A stretch of DNA of 64,000 bases. Origin: Modestobacter caceresii (GTDB taxonomy: Bacteria > Actinomycetota > Actinomycetes > Mycobacteriales > Geodermatophilaceae). The stretch lies in contig NZ_JPMX01000024.1 of NCBI RefSeq assembly GCF_000761485.1, positions 1 through 64,000 on the forward strand, in the 5' to 3' direction. The notes under the pieces were generated by a model. That model worked only from the letters and a program-made list of their open reading frames with translations, did not search any database and was not told the DNA's origin. The translations under genes and the position numbers were made by a program. Each line of letters begins with the position of its first letter. The first letter of the stretch is position 1. This document shows positions 12,230-64,000 of the stretch, piece by piece.

Positions 12230-12640
12230 CGACGGACGAGTCGGCTGGGCGGTCGCGTCGGTGGGGGAGACCCTGCCGCCGAGGAACGTCCGGGCTCCAC
12301 AGGGCAGGGTGGTCGTCAACAGCGACCCGGGGTGACCCGCGGGACAGTGCCACAGAGAACAGACCGCCAGTGCGTGCACTGGTAAGGGTGAAACGGCGGT
12401 GTAAGAGACCACCGCACACCGGGTGACCGGTGTGGCTCGGTAAACCCCACCCGGAGCAAGGTCGAAAAGGGACGGCGGTCCGCCGCCGTCCTGCGCAGGC
12501 GTTCGAGGGCTGCCCGCCCGAGCCTGCGGGTGGACCGCTCGAGCCTGTCGGCAACGGCAGGCCTAGATGGATGGCCGCTCATCGGGACGCCGCGAGGCGC
12601 CCGGGGACAGAACCCGGCGTACAGGTCGACTCGTCCGTCG
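12230..12640 (+). ncRNA. rnpB: RNase P RNA, bacterial class A
   Basis: This stretch carries the universal landmarks of type A RNase P RNA, the catalytic RNA that trims tRNA 5' ends. After the P1 strand GACGGACGAGTC (12231-12242) come GAGGAACGTCCGGGCTCC, ACAGGGCAG, the GTGCCACAGAGA segment, AAGGGTGAAACGGCG, TAAGAGACCACCGC and the 3' segment AGAACCCGGCGTACAGG, ending with GACTCGTCCGTC (12628-12639), which pairs base for base with the start. Length is about 410 nt, as in other actinobacteria. No long reading frame is credible here. Ends are set by the P1 helix and may be off by a few bases. Confidence 0.95.
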
Positions 12641-54652: not shown

Positions 54653-55582
54653 GTGCAGCTACGGATCTTCACCGAACCCCAGATGGGCGCCACCTACGAC
54701 GACCTGCTCGCGGTGGCCCGGCGCACCGAGGAGACCGGCTTCGACGCCTTCTTCCGCTCTGACCACTACCTGACCATGGGCGGGGACGGCCTGCCCGGCC
54801 CGACCGACGCGTGGGTGACCCTGGCCGGCCTCGCCCGGGAGACCTCCCGGATCCGGCTCGGCACGCTGATGACGGCGGCGACCTTCCGGCTGCCCGGGCC
54901 ACTGGCCATCGCGGTGGCGCAGGTCGACCAGATGAGCGGCGGGCGGGTGGAGCTGGGCATCGGCTCGGGGTGGTTCGCCGCGGAGCACCGCGCCTACGGC
55001 ATCCCGTTCCCCGAGGTGGGGGAGCGGTTCGACCGCTACGAGGAGCAGCTCGCGGTCATCAGCGGGCTGTGGGCCACCCCGCTGGGAGAGACCTTCGACT
55101 TCGCCGGTGACCACCACCAGCTCACCGGCTCCCCGGCGCTGCCCAAGCCGGTGCAGCCCGGCGGCGTCCCGATCCTGATCGGCGGGACGGGCAAGAAGCG
55201 CACCCCGCGGCTGGCGGCGCGGTACGCGGCCGAGTTCAACGTGCCCTTTGCCTCCGCCGAGGAGAACGCCCGGCTGTTCGCCGGCGTCCGGGACGCGTGC
55301 ACCGAGGCCGGCCGCGACCCCGGTGACCTGGTCTACAGCTCCGCGCTGGTGCTGTGCGTCGGCCGGGACGAGTCCGAGCTGGCCCGCCGGGCCGCCGCCA
55401 TCGGCCGGGACGTCGACGAGCTGCGCGCCAACGGAGTGGCCGGCACGCCCGCCGAGGCCGTGGACACCCTGGGCCGGTACGCCGAGGCCGGCGCGAGCCG
55501 GGTCTACCTGCAGGTCCTGGACCTGGCCGACCTGGACCACCTGGACCTGGTGGCCGCCGAGGTCGCCCCGCAGCTGGGCTGA
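54653..55582 (+). CDS. LLM-class F420-dependent oxidoreductase
   Basis: A 309-residue luciferase-like barrel enzyme that should reduce or oxidise a substrate with F420H2/F420. Signature parts are FTEPQMGATYDDLLAVARRT, RSDHYLTMGG, RIRLGTLMTAATFRLPG and the F420/phosphate-binding GIGSGWFAAEHRAYGIP. Substrate unknown. GTG 54653 follows CAGACT by 7 bases, a weak leaderless promoter. It stands alone between a minus-strand gene start and a convergent operon. Confidence 0.88.
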   Translation: MQLRIFTEPQMGATYDDLLAVARRTEETGFDAFFRSDHYLTMGGDGLPGPTDAWVTLAGLARETSRIRLGTLMTAATFRLPGPLAIAVAQVDQMSGGRVELGIGSGWFAAEHRAYGIPFPEVGERFDRYEEQLAVISGLWATPLGETFDFAGDHHQLTGSPALPKPVQPGGVPILIGGTGKKRTPRLAARYAAEFNVPFASAEENARLFAGVRDACTEAGRDPGDLVYSSALVLCVGRDESELARRAAAIGRDVDELRANGVAGTPAEAVDTLGRYAEAGASRVYLQVLDLADLDHLDLVAAEVAPQLG

Positions 55583-55588
55583 GCAGCA

Positions 55589-55623
55589 CTGCGCCCCGCC
55601 CGCCGGTGGCGGACGGGGCGCAG
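55589..55623. terminator. bidirectional terminator
   Basis: CTGCGCCCCG..CCGCC and GGCGG..CGGGGCGCAG form a 15-pair stem with one mismatch and a 3-base loop just past the LLM stop codon. Confidence 0.7.
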
Positions 55624-55624
55624 G

Positions 55625-55666
55625 GACCTCAGCACAGCGACCTCAGTGCGGTGACCTCAGCGCAGT
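55625..55666. repeat. 14-bp tandem repeat, three copies
   Basis: GACCTCAGCACAGC (55625), GACCTCAGTGCGGT (55639) and GACCTCAGCGCAGT (55653) follow head to tail. The third copy contains the stop codon and last codons of the nucleotidyltransferase gene, so the array grew outward from the 3' end of that gene. Confidence 0.7.
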
Positions 55667-56493
55667 TCGGAGGCGAGTGGCTCCAGCGCGGCCCGGGAGC
55701 CCAGCCAGGTGTTCGCCCGCTGCAGGTCGTCGTCGAAGTCGATCTCCACCGCGGAGAACCGGGAGATGTCCAGCGGCCGGAAACGGACGCCCGCCCGCTG
55801 GATCGCCAGCTCCATGCCGCGCTCGAAGTAGTCCGAGGCCTCGCAGGCGCTGAGGTGCTCGATGAGCGCGGCCTTGTCCGCCCCCGAGACGTAGTTGATG
55901 CCGACCGCCTCGCCGAGGCCACCGGCCACGGTCTTGGACAGCTCCCGGACGAACCCGTCGGCGTCGAGGGTGTACTTGACCTCCTCGTCGGCGACCGTGG
56001 AGGTGTCCACGCAGACGAAGCTCTCGTCGGCCTGCACCAGCGGTGCGGCGTGGTCGAGCACCGCCGGGTCGAACACCACGTCGCCGTTCAGCCACAGCAC
56101 GCCGCCGGGCTGCGAGGTGCGCAGCGCGCGGAGCAGGCTCTGCGAGGTGTTCGTGACGGCGAAGTCGGGGTTGAACGCGAACAGCAGGTCGGGCTGGGCG
56201 CGCATGACCGCCTTGGCCCGGTAGCCCACCACCGCGGTGATCGGGGTGGCATCGCCGAAGACGGTGCGGATGCCCTCCAGCTGCTGCTGCATGATGCTGC
56301 GGCCGTCCATCAGCGGGGTGAGCGGCTTGGGCAGCTTGCGGCCCAGCCGGGTTCCCATGCCGGCGGCCAGCACGACCACCTGGGGAGCGGTGGGCGTCGG
56401 ACTGGTGGGCGCGGTGGCGGAGGAGCGGCCGGGAGCCGCCCGACGCGACCGCTGATCGCGGCCCCCGGTCAGGATCGGGTCAGTAGTCCGCAT
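55657..56493 (-). CDS. sugar/polyol-phosphate nucleotidyltransferase (LicC/MobA-like)
   Basis: A 278-residue nucleotidyltransferase, last gene of a four-gene operon. After a 38-residue disordered lead, the core begins VVVLAAGMGTRLGRKLPKPL, the nucleotide-binding signature of phosphocholine/polyol-phosphate cytidylyltransferases; LWLNGDVVFD supplies the metal-binding Asp and the C-terminal AVEIDFDDDLQRAN a second acidic pair. It would activate a phosphorylated alcohol as an NDP (likely CDP) derivative. AAAGAGGAG precedes ATG 56493, 3 bases after the previous gene. Confidence 0.85.
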   Translation of the reverse strand: MRTTDPILTGGRDQRSRRAAPGRSSATAPTSPTPTAPQVVVLAAGMGTRLGRKLPKPLTPLMDGRSIMQQQLEGIRTVFGDATPITAVVGYRAKAVMRAQPDLLFAFNPDFAVTNTSQSLLRALRTSQPGGVLWLNGDVVFDPAVLDHAAPLVQADESFVCVDTSTVADEEVKYTLDADGFVRELSKTVAGGLGEAVGINYVSGADKAALIEHLSACEASDYFERGMELAIQRAGVRFRPLDISRFSAVEIDFDDDLQRANTWLGSRAALEPLASELR

Positions 56494-56495
56494 GC

Positions 56496-57617
56496 TCAAC
56501 TCCTCTTTCCGTCGTGCGTGGGTGCAGCCGTCGGCCCGGGAGGGCCGGCCGGGAAGAACAGCTGGAGGACCCGCTCGGTGGCGCGGCCGTCCTCCAGCGA
56601 GCAGAAGGCCTCGTGGAAGCGGTTGTACCGCTCCGTGGGGACCCAGGGCACCCGGCCGAGCTCGGCGATGGCGGCCAGCACCTCCTCGCTGCTGCTGAGC
56701 AGCGGGCCCGGTGCGGCCTCGGCGAGGTCGAAGTAGAAGCCCCGCAGTTCGTTCTGGAAGTACTCCAGGTCGTACGTGAAGTTGATGATCGGCTTCCCGG
56801 TGACGGCGAAGTCGAACATCGTCGAGGAGTAGTCGGTGACCAGGACGTCGGCGGCCAGGTAGAGGAAGCGGATGTCCGGGTAGCTGGACACGTCGCGGAT
56901 GGGCGCCCCCGACGCGAGGTCCAGCCGGTCGGAGACCATCTGGTGCACCCGCAGTAGCAGGACGTGGTCCTCGCCCAGCGCGGCGGCGAACTCGCCGAGG
57001 TCGAGCGGGAACGAGTGCTGAGGTCCACCGTCGGCGGCGTTGAACACCTGGTCGTCGCGCCACGTCGGGGTGTAGAGGACCGCCGTGGCGCCCTCGGGGA
57101 TGCCGAGCTCGGCCCGCACCTGTGCCCGCAGTCGGTCCGCGTCGGGGGAGGAGAGCACGTCGTTGCGCGGGTAGCCGGTCTCGTGCACCGGCCCGGTGAA
57201 CCCGAAGGCCTTCTGGAAGCGCGGAGTGCTCACCGCGTTGGGCGACAGCAGCGCGTCCCAGCGGGCGATCTCGGTGTCCAGGTAGGCCAGCCGGCCCTCC
57301 GGTGCCCACAGCACGTCGTTGTGGATCCGCTTCAGCGGCGTGCCGTGCCAGGTCTGCAGGTATGTCGTGCCGGGGGACTTGTCCCAGTCGAAGCCGATGT
57401 GGTCGTTGGAGACCACGACGTCGGCGGCCTCCAGCGCGGCGACCGCCGCAGGGGTGCCGAACTCGACCGTCGACGTGCCGGCGGGGAAGTCTCCGACCCG
57501 GTCGGCAGCGGCGAGCCAGGTGACGTCGACGTCGTCGCCGCGCTCGACCAGGGCCTCGAAGAGGGCGCGCGGGCTGTCGGAGTACATCCCGCGGAAGCTG
57601 TTGAAGACGACCTTCAC
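56496..57617 (-). CDS. CDP-glycerol glycerophosphotransferase-like protein (TagB/TagF family)
   Basis: A 373-residue GT-B-type transferase of the teichoic-acid polymerase/primase family, which moves a polyol phosphate from CDP-polyol to an acceptor. Typical motifs are TYLQTWHGTPLKRI (catalytic His), YTPTWRDDQ, LLLRVHQMV, and the C-terminal ADVLVTDYSSTMFDFA. No membrane anchor is seen, so it probably acts at the inner membrane face. GTG 57617 overlaps the HAD gene stop by 4 bases (GTGA). Its partner nucleotidyltransferase follows directly. Confidence 0.88.
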   Translation of the reverse strand: MKVVFNSFRGMYSDSPRALFEALVERGDDVDVTWLAAADRVGDFPAGTSTVEFGTPAAVAALEAADVVVSNDHIGFDWDKSPGTTYLQTWHGTPLKRIHNDVLWAPEGRLAYLDTEIARWDALLSPNAVSTPRFQKAFGFTGPVHETGYPRNDVLSSPDADRLRAQVRAELGIPEGATAVLYTPTWRDDQVFNAADGGPQHSFPLDLGEFAAALGEDHVLLLRVHQMVSDRLDLASGAPIRDVSSYPDIRFLYLAADVLVTDYSSTMFDFAVTGKPIINFTYDLEYFQNELRGFYFDLAEAAPGPLLSSSEEVLAAIAELGRVPWVPTERYNRFHEAFCSLEDGRATERVLQLFFPAGPPGPTAAPTHDGKRS

Positions 57618-58444
57618 CGCTGACCACCCGTCTGCAGTAGGGAGGGCCGGGACGCCGGGCGGCGCTCCAGCACCGGGAGGACCAGCTCGGTCAGCTCGGC
57701 CCAGGTGGAGACCACCGCGAGGACGCCGGCGTCCCACAGCTGCGCCTCACGCTCGGCGCGCTCGGCCGGGGCCACGAAACGCAGGTTGCCCACGGTCGGG
57801 CAGCCGGCCCGGACGGCGGACAGTGCACCGGGCACGGAGTCCTCCACGGCCAGGCCCTGGGCCGGGGAGATCCCGATCCGGGCGCACGCGTGCAGGTAGA
57901 CCGCGGGGTCGGGCTTGCTGGTCGGGATGGGGAGGGAGTCCTCGGCGCTGTAGCGGCCGGCCGGGGGAACCAGCTCGTCCAGGCTGGTGGCGGTGAAGCA
58001 CCCGGCCAGGCGGGTGAGGGCGCTGGAGCTGACCGCGGCGAGGGTGAGGTGCCGGCCCAGCGCGCTCAGCGCGGCGGTGACCTCGGCATCCGGGCGCAGC
58101 ACCTGGGAGAGGTGCGCGGTGACGGCCTGCTTCTCCTCGGCGACCCAGCTGTCCAGGTCGGTCACGGGTACGCCGGCCGCAGCGGCCAGCTCAGCGGCCG
58201 TCGTCCGGAAGTTCTTCCCGGTGGTGGCCAGGCGCAGCTCCTCGGCGGTGAACCGCCGGTCGACGCCGTGCGCGGCCAGGAACCGGTTGGTGACGTCGGC
58301 GGAGGCGACGAAGGCCGGCTCCTCGGAGGGGAAGAGGTTCCCGTCCGCGTCGCAGAGCAGCGCCTCGAGTGGCTCGATGAGCGCGTCGATGAGCCGGGGC
58401 ATGGGGGGCGCCTCCTCCGTGGGGTCGGTCGGACGGGTGGTCAT
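57614..58444 (-). CDS. HAD-superfamily phosphatase
   Basis: A 276-residue HAD subfamily IA hydrolase (beta-phosphoglucomutase/phosphatase type): catalytic pair D32 and D34 in LLCDADGNLF, SSSALTRL as motif II and KPDP..GLAVEDSVPGA as motifs III/IV. It would dephosphorylate a sugar or polyol phosphate. In Acinetobacter a HAD domain is fused to a mannitol-1-phosphate dehydrogenase; here the pair is two overlapping genes (ATGA), which supports a joint polyol pathway. Confidence 0.87.
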   Translation of the reverse strand: MTTRPTDPTEEAPPMPRLIDALIEPLEALLCDADGNLFPSEEPAFVASADVTNRFLAAHGVDRRFTAEELRLATTGKNFRTTAAELAAAAGVPVTDLDSWVAEEKQAVTAHLSQVLRPDAEVTAALSALGRHLTLAAVSSSALTRLAGCFTATSLDELVPPAGRYSAEDSLPIPTSKPDPAVYLHACARIGISPAQGLAVEDSVPGALSAVRAGCPTVGNLRFVAPAERAEREAQLWDAGVLAVVSTWAELTELVLPVLERRPASRPSLLQTGGQR

Positions 58445-60021
58445 GCCGGCAGCAGGGCGCCGGACAGTGGGGAGTGGGCCGGTGCGGGGACCGCGGCCGC
58501 GTCGCCCTCGGCGAGCGCGTAGGCCACCGCGCCCCGGACGCCGAGCTCCTCCAGCTGCCGCAGCGCGGTGGCGAGCGCGGTGACGAACGACTCGTCCCGG
58601 CCGAGGTCTCCGAAGACTGCGTCGACGGCGAGCAGCGGCCGCGGGTCGGTGCCGCCGGCGCGGGCCAGGACACCGAGTTCCTCGGCGCGGTCGTCGGCCA
58701 GCGCGAGCGGGCGGCCGGCGAGGTCGGTGCCCTGCAGGTATCGACACCACCCGGCGACGGCGAGGGTGAGCAGCCGGGAGGGGCGGCCCTGCTCCCGCGC
58801 GGTGAGCAGGGAGGGCAGCACGTAGAGCGGGATCTTCGACGAGCCGCGACGGCACAGCCGGTCCAGCCGGTCACCGATGGCCGGGTCGGTGAAACGGCGC
58901 AGCAGGCTCTGCTGGTACTCGCCCAGGTCGATGCCATCGGGCGAGGGCAGCAGCGGCGCGACCTCCCGGGCCATCAGCCGGGTCACGTAGCGGCCCAGCA
59001 CCGGGTCGGCCAGGAACTCGTCGACCCGCGCGACGCCGGCCAGCTCGCCCAGGTGCCCCATCGCGGAGTGGCTGCCGTTGAGCAGCCGGGTCTTCATCAG
59101 CTCGTGGTGGCCGACGTCGGCGACGAACTGCACGCCCACCTGCTCCAGCGGCGGGCGGCCGTTGCAGAAGGAGTCCTCCAGGACCCATTGGGAGAACGGC
59201 TCGGTGATCACCGGCCAGCGGTCGGCGACGCCGAACAAGCGGGTGACCTCGTCCCGGTCGGAGAGGCTGGTGGAGGGGGTGATCCGGTCGACCATGCTGC
59301 CGGGGAAGGTGACCTGCTCGTCGATCCAGGCGGCCAGTCCCGGGTCGCGCAGCTGGGCGAAGCCCACCACCGCGGCGCGGGCGGCCTCGCCGTTGGACTG
59401 CATGTTGTCGCAGGACAGCACGGTGAACGGGGCCAGCCCTGCCCGCCGCCGGACGTCGAGGGCCTCGACGATGTAGCCGAACAGGGTCTGCGGATGGTGC
59501 GGGTCGGCGAGGTCGGCGTGTACCGCGGCGTCGGGGACGAACCGGCCGGTGCCGGCGTCGATCCTGTAGGCGTTGCCGGTGATGGTCATGGTGACCAGCC
59601 GGGTGCGCTCGTCGGTGAGGACGGCCAGCACTGCCTCCGGGGAGTCCGGGGCGAAGAGGTAGTCGATCAGCGAGCCGATCACGCGGGCGTGCTCGCCGGC
59701 GCTGCTGCGCTCCACCACGGTGTACAGGTGGTCCTGCGGCTGAAGGGCATCGCGCATCTGCGGTGAGCGCAGCCCAACGCCGACGACGCCCCAGTCGGTA
59801 CAGCCGGACTCGGCCAGGTCGTCGAGGTAGACCAGCTGGTGCGCCCGGTGGAACCCGCCCACGCTGAAGTGGACGACTGCGGGGGTGAGCGCGGCCCGGT
59901 CGTAGGTGGGCACGCGGACGTTGGCCGCGTGGTGGGGGAGCGTCAGCTCGGACAGCGAGGCCGCCGCGGAGGCGGTGGGGGCGCCGGTGGGGTCGGTGCC
60001 GTGCTGGGCGAGCTGTTCCAT
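58441..60021 (-). CDS. mannitol dehydrogenase-family polyol dehydrogenase
   Basis: A 526-residue long-chain polyol dehydrogenase, first gene of the operon. The Rossmann start VVHFSVGGFHRAHQLVYLDD binds NAD(P), and the catalytic lysine/Asn/His motif appears as MKTRLLNGSHSAMGHLG near residues 308-322. It interconverts a polyol (mannitol, arabinitol or similar) and the ketose, with or without phosphate; which one cannot be read from sequence. ACAGGAGG precedes ATG 60021. Confidence 0.88.
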   Translation of the reverse strand: MEQLAQHGTDPTGAPTASAAASLSELTLPHHAANVRVPTYDRAALTPAVVHFSVGGFHRAHQLVYLDDLAESGCTDWGVVGVGLRSPQMRDALQPQDHLYTVVERSSAGEHARVIGSLIDYLFAPDSPEAVLAVLTDERTRLVTMTITGNAYRIDAGTGRFVPDAAVHADLADPHHPQTLFGYIVEALDVRRRAGLAPFTVLSCDNMQSNGEAARAAVVGFAQLRDPGLAAWIDEQVTFPGSMVDRITPSTSLSDRDEVTRLFGVADRWPVITEPFSQWVLEDSFCNGRPPLEQVGVQFVADVGHHELMKTRLLNGSHSAMGHLGELAGVARVDEFLADPVLGRYVTRLMAREVAPLLPSPDGIDLGEYQQSLLRRFTDPAIGDRLDRLCRRGSSKIPLYVLPSLLTAREQGRPSRLLTLAVAGWCRYLQGTDLAGRPLALADDRAEELGVLARAGGTDPRPLLAVDAVFGDLGRDESFVTALATALRQLEELGVRGAVAYALAEGDAAAVPAPAHSPLSGALLPA

Positions 60022-60404
60022 CGACGTCCTCCTGTCAGCCGTTCAACGCTCCGCGTGCACGGATGTGCCCATTGCCTGCACCCGGGGAGCGGCGGCCTGT
60101 CGGATGCCGCCTGCCGAACAGGTGACGCCCGCTGCCGGCGACGAACTCCACCGGGGGCTCGGGCCGGACGACAGGGGAGTGTCGTCGGCCTCGTGCCCGC
60201 CGGGAGCGCGCTGTCGGCGCGGACGTGCGCAGGCGGCGCTGCTGCTCAACGCCGGACAGGTGTGATGCCCGGAACGGTCGTTGGGCAAACCCACGGTGAT
60301 CATGAACATACGGGTCGGGACCGGTCGTTGGCCAGCGTGCGCCCCACCGTGCTCCCTACGGGTGTGGCGCAGCTCGCTCTCCCGGGGCACCAGGTGGCGC
60401 GCGC
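60022..60404. other. long intergenic region between the polyol operon and leuS leader
   Basis: About 380 bases without a convincing gene. CGGTCGTTGG occurs twice (60275-60284 and 60322-60331), and TATGTT (minus strand, near 60312) could be a -10 box for the polyol operon, which would give it a leader of nearly 300 bases. Short frames on the minus strand exist but lack promoter or ribosome-site support. Confidence 0.4.
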
Positions 60405-60410
60405 TAGGAT
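60405..60410 (+). promoter_or_regulatory. -10 box of the leuS leader transcript
   Basis: TAGGAT lies 7 bases before GTG 60418, the leaderless pattern used throughout the window. Confidence 0.6.
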
Positions 60411-60417
60411 CGGCGCC

Positions 60418-60453
60418 GTGACCGGCGGACTCCTGCTTCCCCAGCCGTGCTGA
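60418..60453 (+). CDS. leuS leader peptide
   Basis: An 11-residue peptide, [11 protein letters not shown], with three consecutive Leu codons (CTC CTG CTT at 60430-60438), starting on a leaderless promoter 127 bases before leuS. The stop codon lies inside the 5' arm of a hairpin that is followed by a terminator. This is the classical layout of ribosome-mediated attenuation; attenuators of this kind were predicted upstream of leuS in some Streptomyces. The frame is too short to be found by homology alone, but promoter, codon content and downstream structure agree. Confidence 0.75.
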
Positions 60454-60506
60454 TCTGACCTGGAGCAGACCAGCACGGCGACCCCTCCTGTGTGAGGGGT
60501 CTTTTT
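60444..60506 (+). promoter_or_regulatory. leuS attenuator: hairpin plus intrinsic terminator
   Basis: Hairpin 1: 60444-60457 pairs with 60466-60479 (13 pairs, one mismatch, 8-base loop) and includes the leader stop codon. Terminator: GACCCCTC (60480-60487) pairs with GAGGGGTC (60494-60501), 6-base loop, then TTTTT at 60502-60506, the only true T-tract terminator I found in the window. The Leu-codon segment 60433-60440 can alternatively pair with GGAGCAG (60462-60468), which could form the switch. Confidence 0.75.
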
Positions 60507-60544
60507 CTGTCCGCCGCCAGATCCTTCCCGTGGGAGCACCGACG

Positions 60545-63454
60545 ATGAGCCAGACGGCCAGCCAGCACACCGAGCCCACCGCCGACGGGGTGCCGCCGCA
60601 CCGGTACACCCCCGCGCTGGCGCAGCAGATCGAGCTCGCCTGGCAGGACCGCTGGGAGGCCGAGGGCACGTTCCACACGCCCAACCCGGTCGGCCGGCTG
60701 AGCGAGGGCTTCGACCGGGTGGCCGACCGGCCCAAGGCCTTCCTGATGGACATGTTCCCGTACCCCTCCGGTGCCGGGCTGCACGTCGGGCACCCGCTGG
60801 GCTACCTGGGCACCGACGTCACCAGCCGCTTCCTGCGGATGGACGGGCACAACGTGCTGCACCCGATGGGGTACGACGCCTTCGGCCTGCCCGCCGAGCA
60901 GTTCGCCGTGCAGACCGGCCAGCACCCGCGGGTCACCACCGAGGCCAACATCGCCGCGATCAGTGCCCAGCTGCGCCGGCTGGGTGTCGACCACGACACC
61001 CGCCGTACCTTCGCCACGATCGACCCGGGCTACTACAAGTGGACCCAGTGGATCTTCCGGCAGATCTTCGAGGCCTGGTTCGACGAGTCCGCCGACGGCG
61101 GTCGGGGCAGGGCCCGGCCGATCCCCGAGCTGGTCGCCGAGCTGGACGCCGGCACCCGGCAGCCCGCTGCGGGCACGCTGCCCGAGGGGCGCGACTGGGC
61201 CGAGCTGTCCGACGTGGAGCGCCGGAGGGTCGTCGACGCGCACCGGCTGGCCTACCGGCACCAGGCGCCGGTGAACTGGTGCCCCGGGCTGGGCACGGTG
61301 CTGTCCAACGAGGAGGTCACCCCGGACGGCAGGTCCGAGCGGGGCAACTTCCCGGTTTTCCGCCGTCCGCTGACCCAGTGGATGGTGCGGATCACCTCCT
61401 ACGCCGAGCGGCTGCTGACCGACCTGGACCGGCTGGACTGGTCGGACTCCCTGAAGCAGATGCAGCGCAACTGGATCGGCCGGTCGACCGGCGCCCGGGT
61501 GCGGTTCGCCACCGGGGCTGAGTCCATCGAGGTGTTCACCACCCGGCCGGACACCCTGTTCGGCGCCACCTACCTGGTGCTGGCGCCCGAGCACCCGCTG
61601 GTCGGCACGCTGACCGCCGGCCAGTGGCCCGAGGGCACCGACCCCCGGTGGACCGCCGGCGCGCCCACCCCGGCCGAGGCCGTCGCCGCCTACCAGCGGC
61701 AGGCCTCCCGCCGCTCGGAGCTGGACCGGCAGGCCGAGGGCCGGGAGAAGACCGGGGTCTGGCTGGGCGCCACCGCCCGCAACCCGCTGACCGGGGCCGA
61801 CCTGCCGGTGTTCATCGCCGACTACGTGCTCACCGGCTACGGCACCGGCGCGATCATGGCGGTGCCCGGCGAGGACGCCCGGGACTGGGACTTCGCGCAG
61901 GAGTTCGGGCTGCCCGTCGTCCGCACCGTGCAGCCGCCGGCCGACTTCGACGGCGGTGCGTACACCGGCACCGGCCCGATGATCAACAGCTCGAACGAGC
62001 ACCTGTCGCTGGACGGTCTGGACAAGGCCGCCGCCATCGCCCGGGTGACCGAGTGGCTGGTGGCGAAGGGGGTCGGCGAGGCGACCACGACCTACAAGCT
62101 GCGCGACTGGCTGTTCAGCCGGCAGCGGTACTGGGGCGAGCCGTTCCCGGTGGTCTACGCCGTCGACGGTGACGACGCCGACCTGCCGGTCGCCGTCCCG
62201 GAGTCGATGCTGCCGGTGCTGCTGCCCGAGGTCGACGACTACTCGCCCAAGACGTTCGCCGACGACGACGCCGACTCCCAGCCCGAGCCGCCGCTGTCCC
62301 GGGCCACCGAGTGGACGACGGTCACCCTGGACCTGGGCGACGGCCCTCGCCGGTACCGCCGCGAGACCAACACCATGCCCAACTGGGCCGGCTCGTGCTG
62401 GTACTACCTGCGCTACCTGGACCCGGCGAACGACGAGCGGTTCGTCGACCCGGAGCTGGAGGCCTACTGGATGGGCCCGCGGGAGCCCGGTGACGTCGGC
62501 GGCGTCGACCTGTACGTCGGCGGTGTGGAGCACGCGGTGCTGCACCTGCTGTACGCCCGGTTCTGGCACAAGGTGCTGTTCGACCTGGGTCACGTCTCCA
62601 GCGAGGAGCCGTTCCGCCGGCTGGTCAACCAGGGCTACATCTCCGCCTTCGCCTACACCGACGCCCGGGGCTTCTACGTGCCCGCCGCCGAGGTGGTGGA
62701 GAAGGACGGCCAGTTCCTCTACCAGGGGGAGCCGGTCAGCCGGGAGTACGGGAAGATCGGCAAGAGCCTGAAGAACATGGTCACGCCGGACGAGATGATC
62801 GGGCAGTACGGGGCCGACACGTTCCGGGTCTACGAGATGTCGACCGGGCCGCTGGACCAGTCCCGCCCGTGGGAGACCAAGGCCGTGGTCGGCTCGCAGC
62901 GGCTGCTGCAGCGGGTCTGGCGGGTCGTGGTCGACGAGGAGTCCGGCGCGGTGCGCGCCGGCGACGTCGAGCCGGACGACGAGACCTCGCGCGCCCTGCA
63001 CCGGGCGATCGAGGCCGTGCGCGACGGCATGACGACCCTGCGGTTCAACATCGCCATCGCCCGGATCACCGAGCTGACCAACCACCTGACCTCGGCCTGC
63101 CCGCCGGGGACGCCGGTGCCGCGCTCGGTCGCCGAGTCGCTGGTGCTGCTGGTCGCGCCGCTGGCCCCGCACCTGGCCGAGGAGCTGTGGGCCCGGCTGG
63201 GGCACTCTGACTCCGTGGCCTGGGCGTCCTTCCCGGTGGCCGACCCGCAGTGGCTGGTCGACGAGACGGTGCAGGTCGCCGTCCAGGTCAACGGCAAGGT
63301 GCGGGCCCAGGTGGCCGTACCGGCCGACGCGGACGCCGCGGCGCTGGAGGCGGCGGCCCGGGCGGACGAGCGGATCGCCGGCTACCTCGACGGCGCGACC
63401 GTGCGCAGGGTGGTCGCGGTGCCGGGCCGGCTGGTCAACTTCGTCCTGGGCTGA
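60545..63454 (+). CDS. leuS: leucyl-tRNA synthetase
   Basis: A 969-residue class I synthetase charging tRNA-Leu. The HIGH motif is HVGHP near residue 80; an editing (CP1) domain lies about 230-430 with [20 protein letters not shown]; the KMSKS counterpart is KIGKS near residue 737, the usual variant in actinobacteria; a C-terminal anticodon-binding and tail domain follows ([15 protein letters not shown]). ATG 60545 has GGGAG 9 bases upstream; GTG 60530 is less likely. Expression is controlled by the upstream leader and terminator. Confidence 0.95.
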
Positions 63455-63475
63455 CCGCCGCGCGGGGTGTCAGCG

Positions 63476-63561
63476 CTGATCAGGTGACCTGATCAGGAAC
63501 TGTCCTACCGCATCAACGCTGGTGGGGGAGGACAGTCAGTGATCAGGTGACCTGATCACTG
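63476..63561. repeat. paired 19-bp palindrome with inner inverted repeat
   Basis: TGATCAGGTGACCTGATCA, itself a perfect palindrome, occurs at 63477-63495 and 63540-63558; with flanks the copies are 21 and 25 bases of perfect symmetry. Between them ACTGTCCT (63499-63506) faces AGGACAGT (63529-63536). The whole block can fold as one large hairpin, or each palindrome can bind a dimeric protein. The second copy covers the last codons of the minus-strand gene that stops at 63556. Confidence 0.8.
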
Positions 63562-63999
63562 TCGGGCGGCGGGGGTGATGCGGATCATCGTCTGGCGTTC
63601 CCGCCCGCGGTGCGTGAACCGCGCCGCGATGCGGGAGGTGCCGTAGGTGATCCGCCACTGCCAGCCGTAGCGCCGGGCGAGGGCAGCCCGCGCGCCGGGC
63701 CACTCGGACGGCTCGAGGAACTCGGCGAGACCGTCGACCGCCGGACCCTCGAGCCGGCCCCGCATGTCGCAGGGGGCGACGGTGACCCGGCTGGTGTGCC
63801 GCAGCCGCTTCACCTTGCCGGAGTCCGCCCGGGTCCAGACCACCAGAGAAAGGACCTCGTCCCCCTCCCTCCTCGCCCGCTCGGAGCGAGCCTCTGGACG
63901 AGGCCCGACCGGCGCCGCCCAGACTGGGGTGGGCACGGCCTCGCCGGTGCGCCGGAAGGTGGTCAGGCTGACGTACCGGCTGGTGGGGAGACTGGTCAT
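63556..63999 (-). CDS. PPOX-class F420-dependent oxidoreductase-like protein
   Basis: A 147-residue split-barrel flavin/F420-binding protein of the pyridoxamine-phosphate-oxidase-like class: YVSLTTFRRTGEAVPTPVWA at the N-terminus, then SLVVWTRADSGKVKRLRHTS and VTVAPCDMRG, a pattern typical of F420-dependent actinobacterial members (TIGR03666-like). It would reduce an unknown substrate with F420H2. The start codon abuts the window edge, so an upstream extension or promoter cannot be judged. Confidence 0.82.
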   Translation of the reverse strand: MTSLPTSRYVSLTTFRRTGEAVPTPVWAAPVGPRPEARSERARREGDEVLSLVVWTRADSGKVKRLRHTSRVTVAPCDMRGRLEGPAVDGLAEFLEPSEWPGARAALARRYGWQWRITYGTSRIAARFTHRGRERQTMIRITPAARQ

Positions 64000-64000
64000 G

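Follow-up and report, generated by a model that had tools for sequence, protein, structure and literature searches.

A probable leucine attenuator before leuS in Modestobacter caceresii, with a hairpin abutting its terminator

Attenuators before leuS were predicted in Streptomyces coelicolor and S. avermitilis by Seliverstov et al. in 2005 (PMC1262725), and the preliminary description of the locus studied here had cited that paper correctly; in its accessible text the elements are described as classical, with an antiterminator. In S. lividans TK24 the leader leuL2 is reported, on RNA-seq evidence, to be leaderless and is followed by a hairpin and a U stretch, and the consensus -10 box of this organism is TAnnnT (PMC8079986, accessible passages). 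For C. glutamicum ilvBNC, the excerpted text of PMC11857589 gives a three-hairpin model in which the hairpins overlap by a shared GCC trinucleotide. The LEU element before actinobacterial leuA forms a pseudoknot with the Shine-Dalgarno box and was taken as non-classical attenuation (PMC1262725, accessible text).

We analysed a 64,000-nt stretch of M. caceresii DNA (NZ_JPMX01000024.1, positions 1 to 64,000; hereafter the window) in which leuS is preceded by a leader of related design. Like the Streptomyces elements of PMC1262725, it has a leader reading frame with Leu codons, a hairpin and a terminator before leuS; unlike them, as far as that paper's accessible text describes them, it has no pairing antiterminator that we could find. 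With leuL2 as presented in the accessible part of PMC8079986 it shares a hairpin and U stretch and a leaderless short reading frame with a Leu run directly before leuS, judged by sequence and -10 position, whereas its peptide differs from the leuL2 peptide (MRAVRLLLSEPR) and starts with GTG. C. glutamicum ilvBNC (PMC11857589) and the ilvB-II motif (PMC10272879), in the passages available, likewise have branched-chain leader codons including CUU and a hairpin adjacent to the terminator, but the GCC overlap of ilvBNC has no counterpart in the leader studied here. The LEU element of leuA is also an actinobacterial leader with a Leu run; the accessible text describes a pseudoknot with the Shine-Dalgarno box for it, and in the present leader an intrinsic terminator follows. 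A leuS attenuator is of a kind predicted since 2005 and, as far as the open-access literature shows, is new to Geodermatophilaceae: we found no report of one from this family in that literature.

Parts of the leuS leader

The preliminary description had proposed a ribosome-mediated attenuator made up of a TAGGAT box, 7 nt, a GTG-started leaderless frame of 11 codons with CTC CTG CTT in a row, a 13-pair hairpin containing the stop codon and an 8-pair stem with T5. The promoter and leader parts were all present where it had placed them, and both hairpins were confirmed by reading and by folding. The features are as follows, all on the + strand; the leader frame, control codons and Shine-Dalgarno-like motif were read directly from the DNA.

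60405 to 60410, +: -10 box TAGGAT of a predicted leaderless promoter without a clear -35, 7 nt from the GTG at 60418
60418 to 60453, +: leader peptide reading frame of 11 codons, GTG at 60418, TGA at 60451-60453
60423 to 60430, +: 5' arm of outer stem P0, pairing with 60509-60516 in the MFE fold
60430 to 60438, +: control codons CTC CTG CTT (three Leu codons)
60444 to 60479, +: hairpin P1, core arms GCCGTGCTG (60444-60452) and CAGCACGGC (60471-60479)
60480 to 60506, +: intrinsic terminator T, stem 60480-60487 / 60494-60501 (8 pairs, 6-nt loop), T5 at 60502-60506, directly adjoining P1
60480 to 60490, +: candidate RNA polymerase pause site after P1, with G-10 Y-1 G+1 as G60480, T60489 and G60490
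60509 to 60516, +: 3' arm of P0 in the MFE fold, downstream of the U tract
60532 to 60536, +: Shine-Dalgarno-like GGGAG, 8 nt upstream of the leuS ATG
60545 to 63454, +: leuS, leucine--tRNA ligase of 969 aa (NCBIfam and Pfam matches)

P1 consists of 9 pairs, one mismatch and 4 further pairs (13 pairs in all) around an 8-nt loop, with the leader TGA inside. The downstream gene is a genuine leuS, as had been claimed: it scored 867 bits against TIGR00396 with a cut-off of 548 (NCBIfam), and Pfam agrees. The region 60417-60545 folded to -60.4 kcal/mol, compared with -45.3 +/- 3.6 for shuffled sequences (n=200; z -4.2; none of the 200 as good). A terminator scan of 55000-64000 gave two sites against 0.8 expected, and both were versions of the T structure. 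In Rfam there was no match at the gathering score at the leuS leader, and the 13 sub-threshold matches included no T-box or attenuator. Elsewhere in the window, Rfam placed a bacterial class A RNase P RNA at 12237-12637 (RF00010, 272 bits).

We found that control codons for the gene's own amino acid and an intrinsic terminator before the gene, both features of trp-type attenuators, are present, while an antiterminator exclusive with T by pairing was not found (pseudoknots were covered through loop-arm complementarity only). We consider the leader to be a leucine-sensing, ribosome-mediated transcription attenuator with a probability of about 0.8, a reading drawn from sequence comparison. Its assignment to this known type follows from the shared anatomy, the covariation and the identity with LeuL2 in Streptomyces described below. 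The proposal made for the leader is supported by its parts, their conservation and their covariation.

Conservation and covariation of the element

The family set comprised 53 leuS upstream regions out of 100 family genomes with a LeuS match, taken as closest matches or as a drawn sample. Leader, Leu run, P1 and T were found in 53/53. All of these leaders start with GTG, carry at least two Leu codons, end in P-C-stop with the stop inside P1, and have P1 set against T; one in-frame start was listed for each. TAnnnT lies 6 or 7 nt upstream of the leader start in every one of the 53 and, since it was not required when the loci were picked, these count as evidence for the -10 box. By LeuS, the closest named records among the matches listed were two Blastococcus. 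The Leu codons and terminator stem are thus kept in close relatives, where their loss would have counted against an attenuator. One locus of the same genus, L003, has a C-C mismatch in P1 (GCCCTGCTG against CAGCACGGC) and, being very closely related, could serve as a natural test of this hairpin.

P1 and T are nearly invariant in the 45 family loci that were aligned, and covariation was therefore sought in more distant genomes with a covariance model built from these 45. The model gave a single match in its own genome and at least 111 matches in at least 108 of 296 genomes of the class, stricter filters making both figures lower bounds. Of 246 genomes sampled across the phylum, 13 matched, one of them (G619) outside the class; an order-level relative, L063, gave no model match. 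The distribution of the element extends beyond S. coelicolor and S. avermitilis, for which the accessible text of PMC1262725 names it.

For the class alignment, 97 matches from 98 sources were fitted to the model. Paired cells amounted to 97.7%, and double changes were seen in 14 of 17 pairs, compared with a mean of 5.5 pairs in shuffled alignments, none of which reached 14 in 500 trials; double-change cells numbered 120 against 17.8 in the shuffles. Both structures contributed, the P1 core with double changes in 7/9 pairs (98.8% of cells paired) and T with 7/8. Because this alignment had been fitted to the model, we ran an unfitted control: 89 leuS elements aligned with MAFFT still showed double changes in 11/17 pairs, 5/9 in P1 (98.7% of cells paired) and 6/8 in T (92.5%). 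The preliminary description had proposed looking upstream of relatives' leuS for covariation and for a conserved Leu run; both were found class-wide.

Eight of the 97 matches do not precede leuS: four stand before ilvB (4/4 by NCBIfam), three lie upstream of citramalate synthase-like genes, of which NCBIfam identified one and inspection by eye two, and one is a chance match on tRNA-like sequence. A tblastn search with the N-terminus of the window LeuS succeeded at E <= 1e-5 in 76 of 92 class loci; the 16 without a match were 7 ilvB or cimA-like loci, the tRNA-like chance match and 8 others. At L069, L118, L126 and L134 the downstream gene was assigned by eye to a second LeuS type, L098, L112, L149 and L150 were counted without a tblastn match to the window LeuS N-terminus, and at L131 the second-type LeuS was confirmed by the family model. 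LeuS genes of two distinct types are found downstream of the element. Genome G464 seemingly carries it before both (L105 and L106, from tblastn strength and reading frame), which suggests that the leader can go with more than one synthetase lineage.

Among 48 named loci (L154-L201) fetched by LeuS protein, the element was present in 40. It was absent from two Cellulomonas, one Janibacter, two Nocardia, one Mycolicibacterium and two MAGs, the last two being from Acidimicrobiaceae and Ilumatobacteraceae, which we take to be another class.

Leader decoding covered 107 elements taken as leuS, namely 89 model matches and 18 of the 40 matching named loci. Decoding succeeded in 100; T was not found in four of the remainder and a leader in three. 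As the decoding rule called for TAnnnT 4-10 nt before an in-frame start, these 100 leaders are no evidence for the -10 box. The Leu run was of three codons in 73 leaders, four in 14, two in 12 and one in a single case. CTT was its final codon in 86/100. The same codon is rare in leuS, with 22 occurrences among 2324 Leu codons in the leuS parts of 47 named loci and none among the 80 of the window gene. Rare control codons occur in other attenuators. The model built on the family also finds Streptomyces leuS loci, LeuL2 among them: of 12 named Streptomyces leaders decoded, six were exactly MRAVRLLLSEPR and the other six differed at one or two residues, and MRAVRLLLSEPR occurred in 17 of all 100. 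TCCG follows directly on the U tract in 52/99 elements.

These observations bear on the possibility that T is a constitutive terminator beside a coincidental short reading frame, with leuS served by another promoter. The conserved reading frame and its rare Leu codon argue against it, as do the leaderless start and LeuL2 reported for S. lividans (PMC8079986, accessible passages). A search for the dinucleotide TA between the T stem and the leuS ATG also found none, which leaves this interval without the TAnnnT -10 box that a later promoter would use. We regard this explanation as scarcely credible.

The hairpin abutting the terminator

The preliminary description had remarked that it was not obvious how the first hairpin and the terminator exclude each other, and had proposed alternative folds with the ribosome placed on the leader. 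Such folds, with the ribosome in three states, revealed no antiterminator pairing with T, and no mutual exclusion by pairing was found. T was about as stable in all three: its mean probability with no ribosome, a stalled ribosome and a ribosome at the stop codon was 0.88, 0.90 and 0.89 in a set of 79 elements that included six from ilvB or cimA, and 0.88, 0.89 and 0.90 over 73 leuS elements, 16 of the 89 having been left out where the stop codon or U tract was not found by patterns. The computed states therefore give no proof of the switch step, T folding about equally well in each.

The element could still be a classical attenuator whose antiterminator, a pseudoknot or a pairing of the leader with the T 3' arm, was missed by the folds, as the description of the Streptomyces elements in the accessible text of PMC1262725, as classical and with antiterminator hairpins, would lead one to expect. 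The Leu-codon segment does match the T 3' arm better than its own shuffles do (-8.6 against -7.2 kcal/mol, p 8e-12, uncorrected for relatedness), but the Leu codons lie under the stalled ribosome, so that they could pair with this arm only when the leader is untranslated. In L086, L098 and L127 a stalled ribosome left T weaker than a terminating one did, which is the behaviour expected of a pairing switch. Against such a switch, the T 5' arm is mostly free in transcripts ending short of the T 3' arm when a ribosome occupies the first Leu codon: its mean pairing was then 0.12 (above 0.5 in 2/100), compared with 0.31 for a free leader (19/100) and 0.37 with the ribosome at the stop codon (18/100). 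The P1 loop likewise showed no excess complementarity to either T arm when pseudoknots were sought in this way. We consider a missed antiterminator unlikely, though it deserves to be kept in mind.

Exchange at the boundary of P1 and T would make the leader a fast attenuator as in C. glutamicum ilvBNC, where the hairpin bases are likewise adjacent (accessible text of PMC11857589), with shared boundary nucleotides and branch migration. We found that an extension of P1 into T, even by a single pair, is possible in 5/89 elements and one of T into P1 in 0/89; the window allows neither, so that the ilvBNC exchange does not apply, and such a mechanism is very improbable here. The outer stem P0 was also tried as a switch and dismissed, its 3' arm lying beyond the U tract. 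Own P0 arms paired better than swapped ones over 99 elements (-18.4 against -17.0, p 0.0006), a signal that is mostly family-level, being strong in 13 family members (-25.7 against -20.6) and slight in the other 86 (-17.3 against -16.4, p 0.019).

We next considered the spacing of P1 and T. In the 89 model-placed elements the linker between them is 0 nt in 56, 1 nt in 32 and 2 nt in one. Measured without model coordinates in the 40 named loci it is 0-3 nt in 34, five having no strong hairpin and one no terminator. Of 13 terminators taken as controls, eight proved to be copies of the element. None of the five other terminators, sorted by eye, has a strong upstream hairpin; this sample is too small for the control to carry much weight.

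For the ribosome footprint we assumed an edge lying 12 nt past the first base of the A-site codon. Among the 100 decoded leaders, nine of which have their stop just before P1, the entire 5' core of P1 (9 nt) lies under a ribosome at the stop codon in 100/100. With the ribosome at the first Leu codon the core is clear of it in 84 leaders; the overlap is 1-2 nt in 14 leaders, 5 nt in one and 8 nt in another. At the last Leu codon the ribosome covers 5 nt in 80/100, so that P1 would be partly open, a poor fit if CTT is the sensor. The leaders with the stop just before P1, and not inside it, are the shortened ones of L112, L116, L118, L121, L123, L137, L140, L193 and L201; in these nine P1 is kept though it is no longer coding. 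For RNA polymerase pausing the consensus is G-10 Y-1 G+1, which we scored after P1: 58 of 100 elements have it in register, against 42 at a shift of -1, 21 at +1 and 0-9 at the other shifts tested.

We infer that the leader is translated, in which direction it regulates, and how folded P1 defeats T. Transcription would begin at the leader GTG, and a ribosome would load on the bare 5' end, while P1 would form behind RNA polymerase and probably pause it. With charged Leu-tRNA at hand, the ribosome would reach the stop codon, its footprint would lie over the 5' arm of P1, P1 would be open, T would fold and transcription would stop. With Leu-tRNA scarce, the ribosome would stall on CTC CTG CTT, P1 would stay folded and leuS would be read. 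The folded P1 would act sterically and prevent closure of T within the exit channel of RNA polymerase: as no unpaired nucleotides separate the two hairpins, the geometry of that channel would force P1 into the place, beside the RNA-DNA hybrid, at which the T stem must close at its base. A terminating ribosome, by opening P1, would supply the single-stranded linker that T needs.

Two published results were counted against these proposals. Codon changes in the S. coelicolor ilvB leader had no effect on regulation, in work cited in the accessible text of PMC1262725, which weighs against the attenuator reading. In M. smegmatis, two tandem hairpins behind gyrA terminate better than single ones (PMC8355165, accessible passages), which weighs against a gate formed by P1. 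From this one case P1 and T could equally be read as a tandem terminator that a ribosome weakens by opening P1, with leuS read more at plentiful leucine. This would lower leuS when charged Leu-tRNA is short, the opposite of what a run of rare Leu codons implies, and we judge it quite improbable. The Mn riboswitch, with a helix in the exit channel (PMC11087558), is no precedent for a steric gate, as in the accessible text it works by strand overlap. In the portions of the open-access literature available we found no description of a hairpin that gates a terminator by adjoining it.

The same layout before ilvB and cimA

Two further leaders of the same genome have this layout. An ilvB leader, VPRTRLLVAIH with stop TAG (L242, 2543-2639, minus strand), ends at the base of a hairpin that is separated from the terminator by a 1-nt linker. 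A gene for a cimA-like citramalate synthase has the leader MDATRTIIS, with two Ile codons and stop TAG (L243, 2344-2428, minus strand); here the stop lies at the base of a 10-pair hairpin, with 0 nt to the terminator. It is possible that the cimA leader is an Ile attenuator. In other genomes, the citramalate synthase-like loci L135, L136 and L139 have Ile-rich stretches before the same hairpin pair. No TAnnnT at leaderless distance was listed for the ilvB and cimA leaders of this genome, and their starts are less sure for that reason.

When folded, the leuS, ilvB and cimA leaders all held P1 and T side by side in the stall and no-ribosome states. In the stop-codon fold of cimA T itself was lost, which speaks against reading cimA as a gate formed by P1.

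We tentatively propose, while regarding it as doubtful, that leuS, ilvB and cimA of this genome belong to a class-wide form of attenuation without an antiterminator, in which a ribosome-gated hairpin with zero linker sterically blocks the terminator. Textbook attenuation consists of two RNA structures competing for the same bases; the covarying pair P1 and T shows no such competition, yet its geometry tracks the ribosome footprint. Should folded P1 suffice to suppress T, a terminator could be gated by the structure that abuts it. If true, this might be the reason that antiterminators are difficult to discern in some leaders of actinobacteria, and switches of this type could be sought by a simple rule of spacing.
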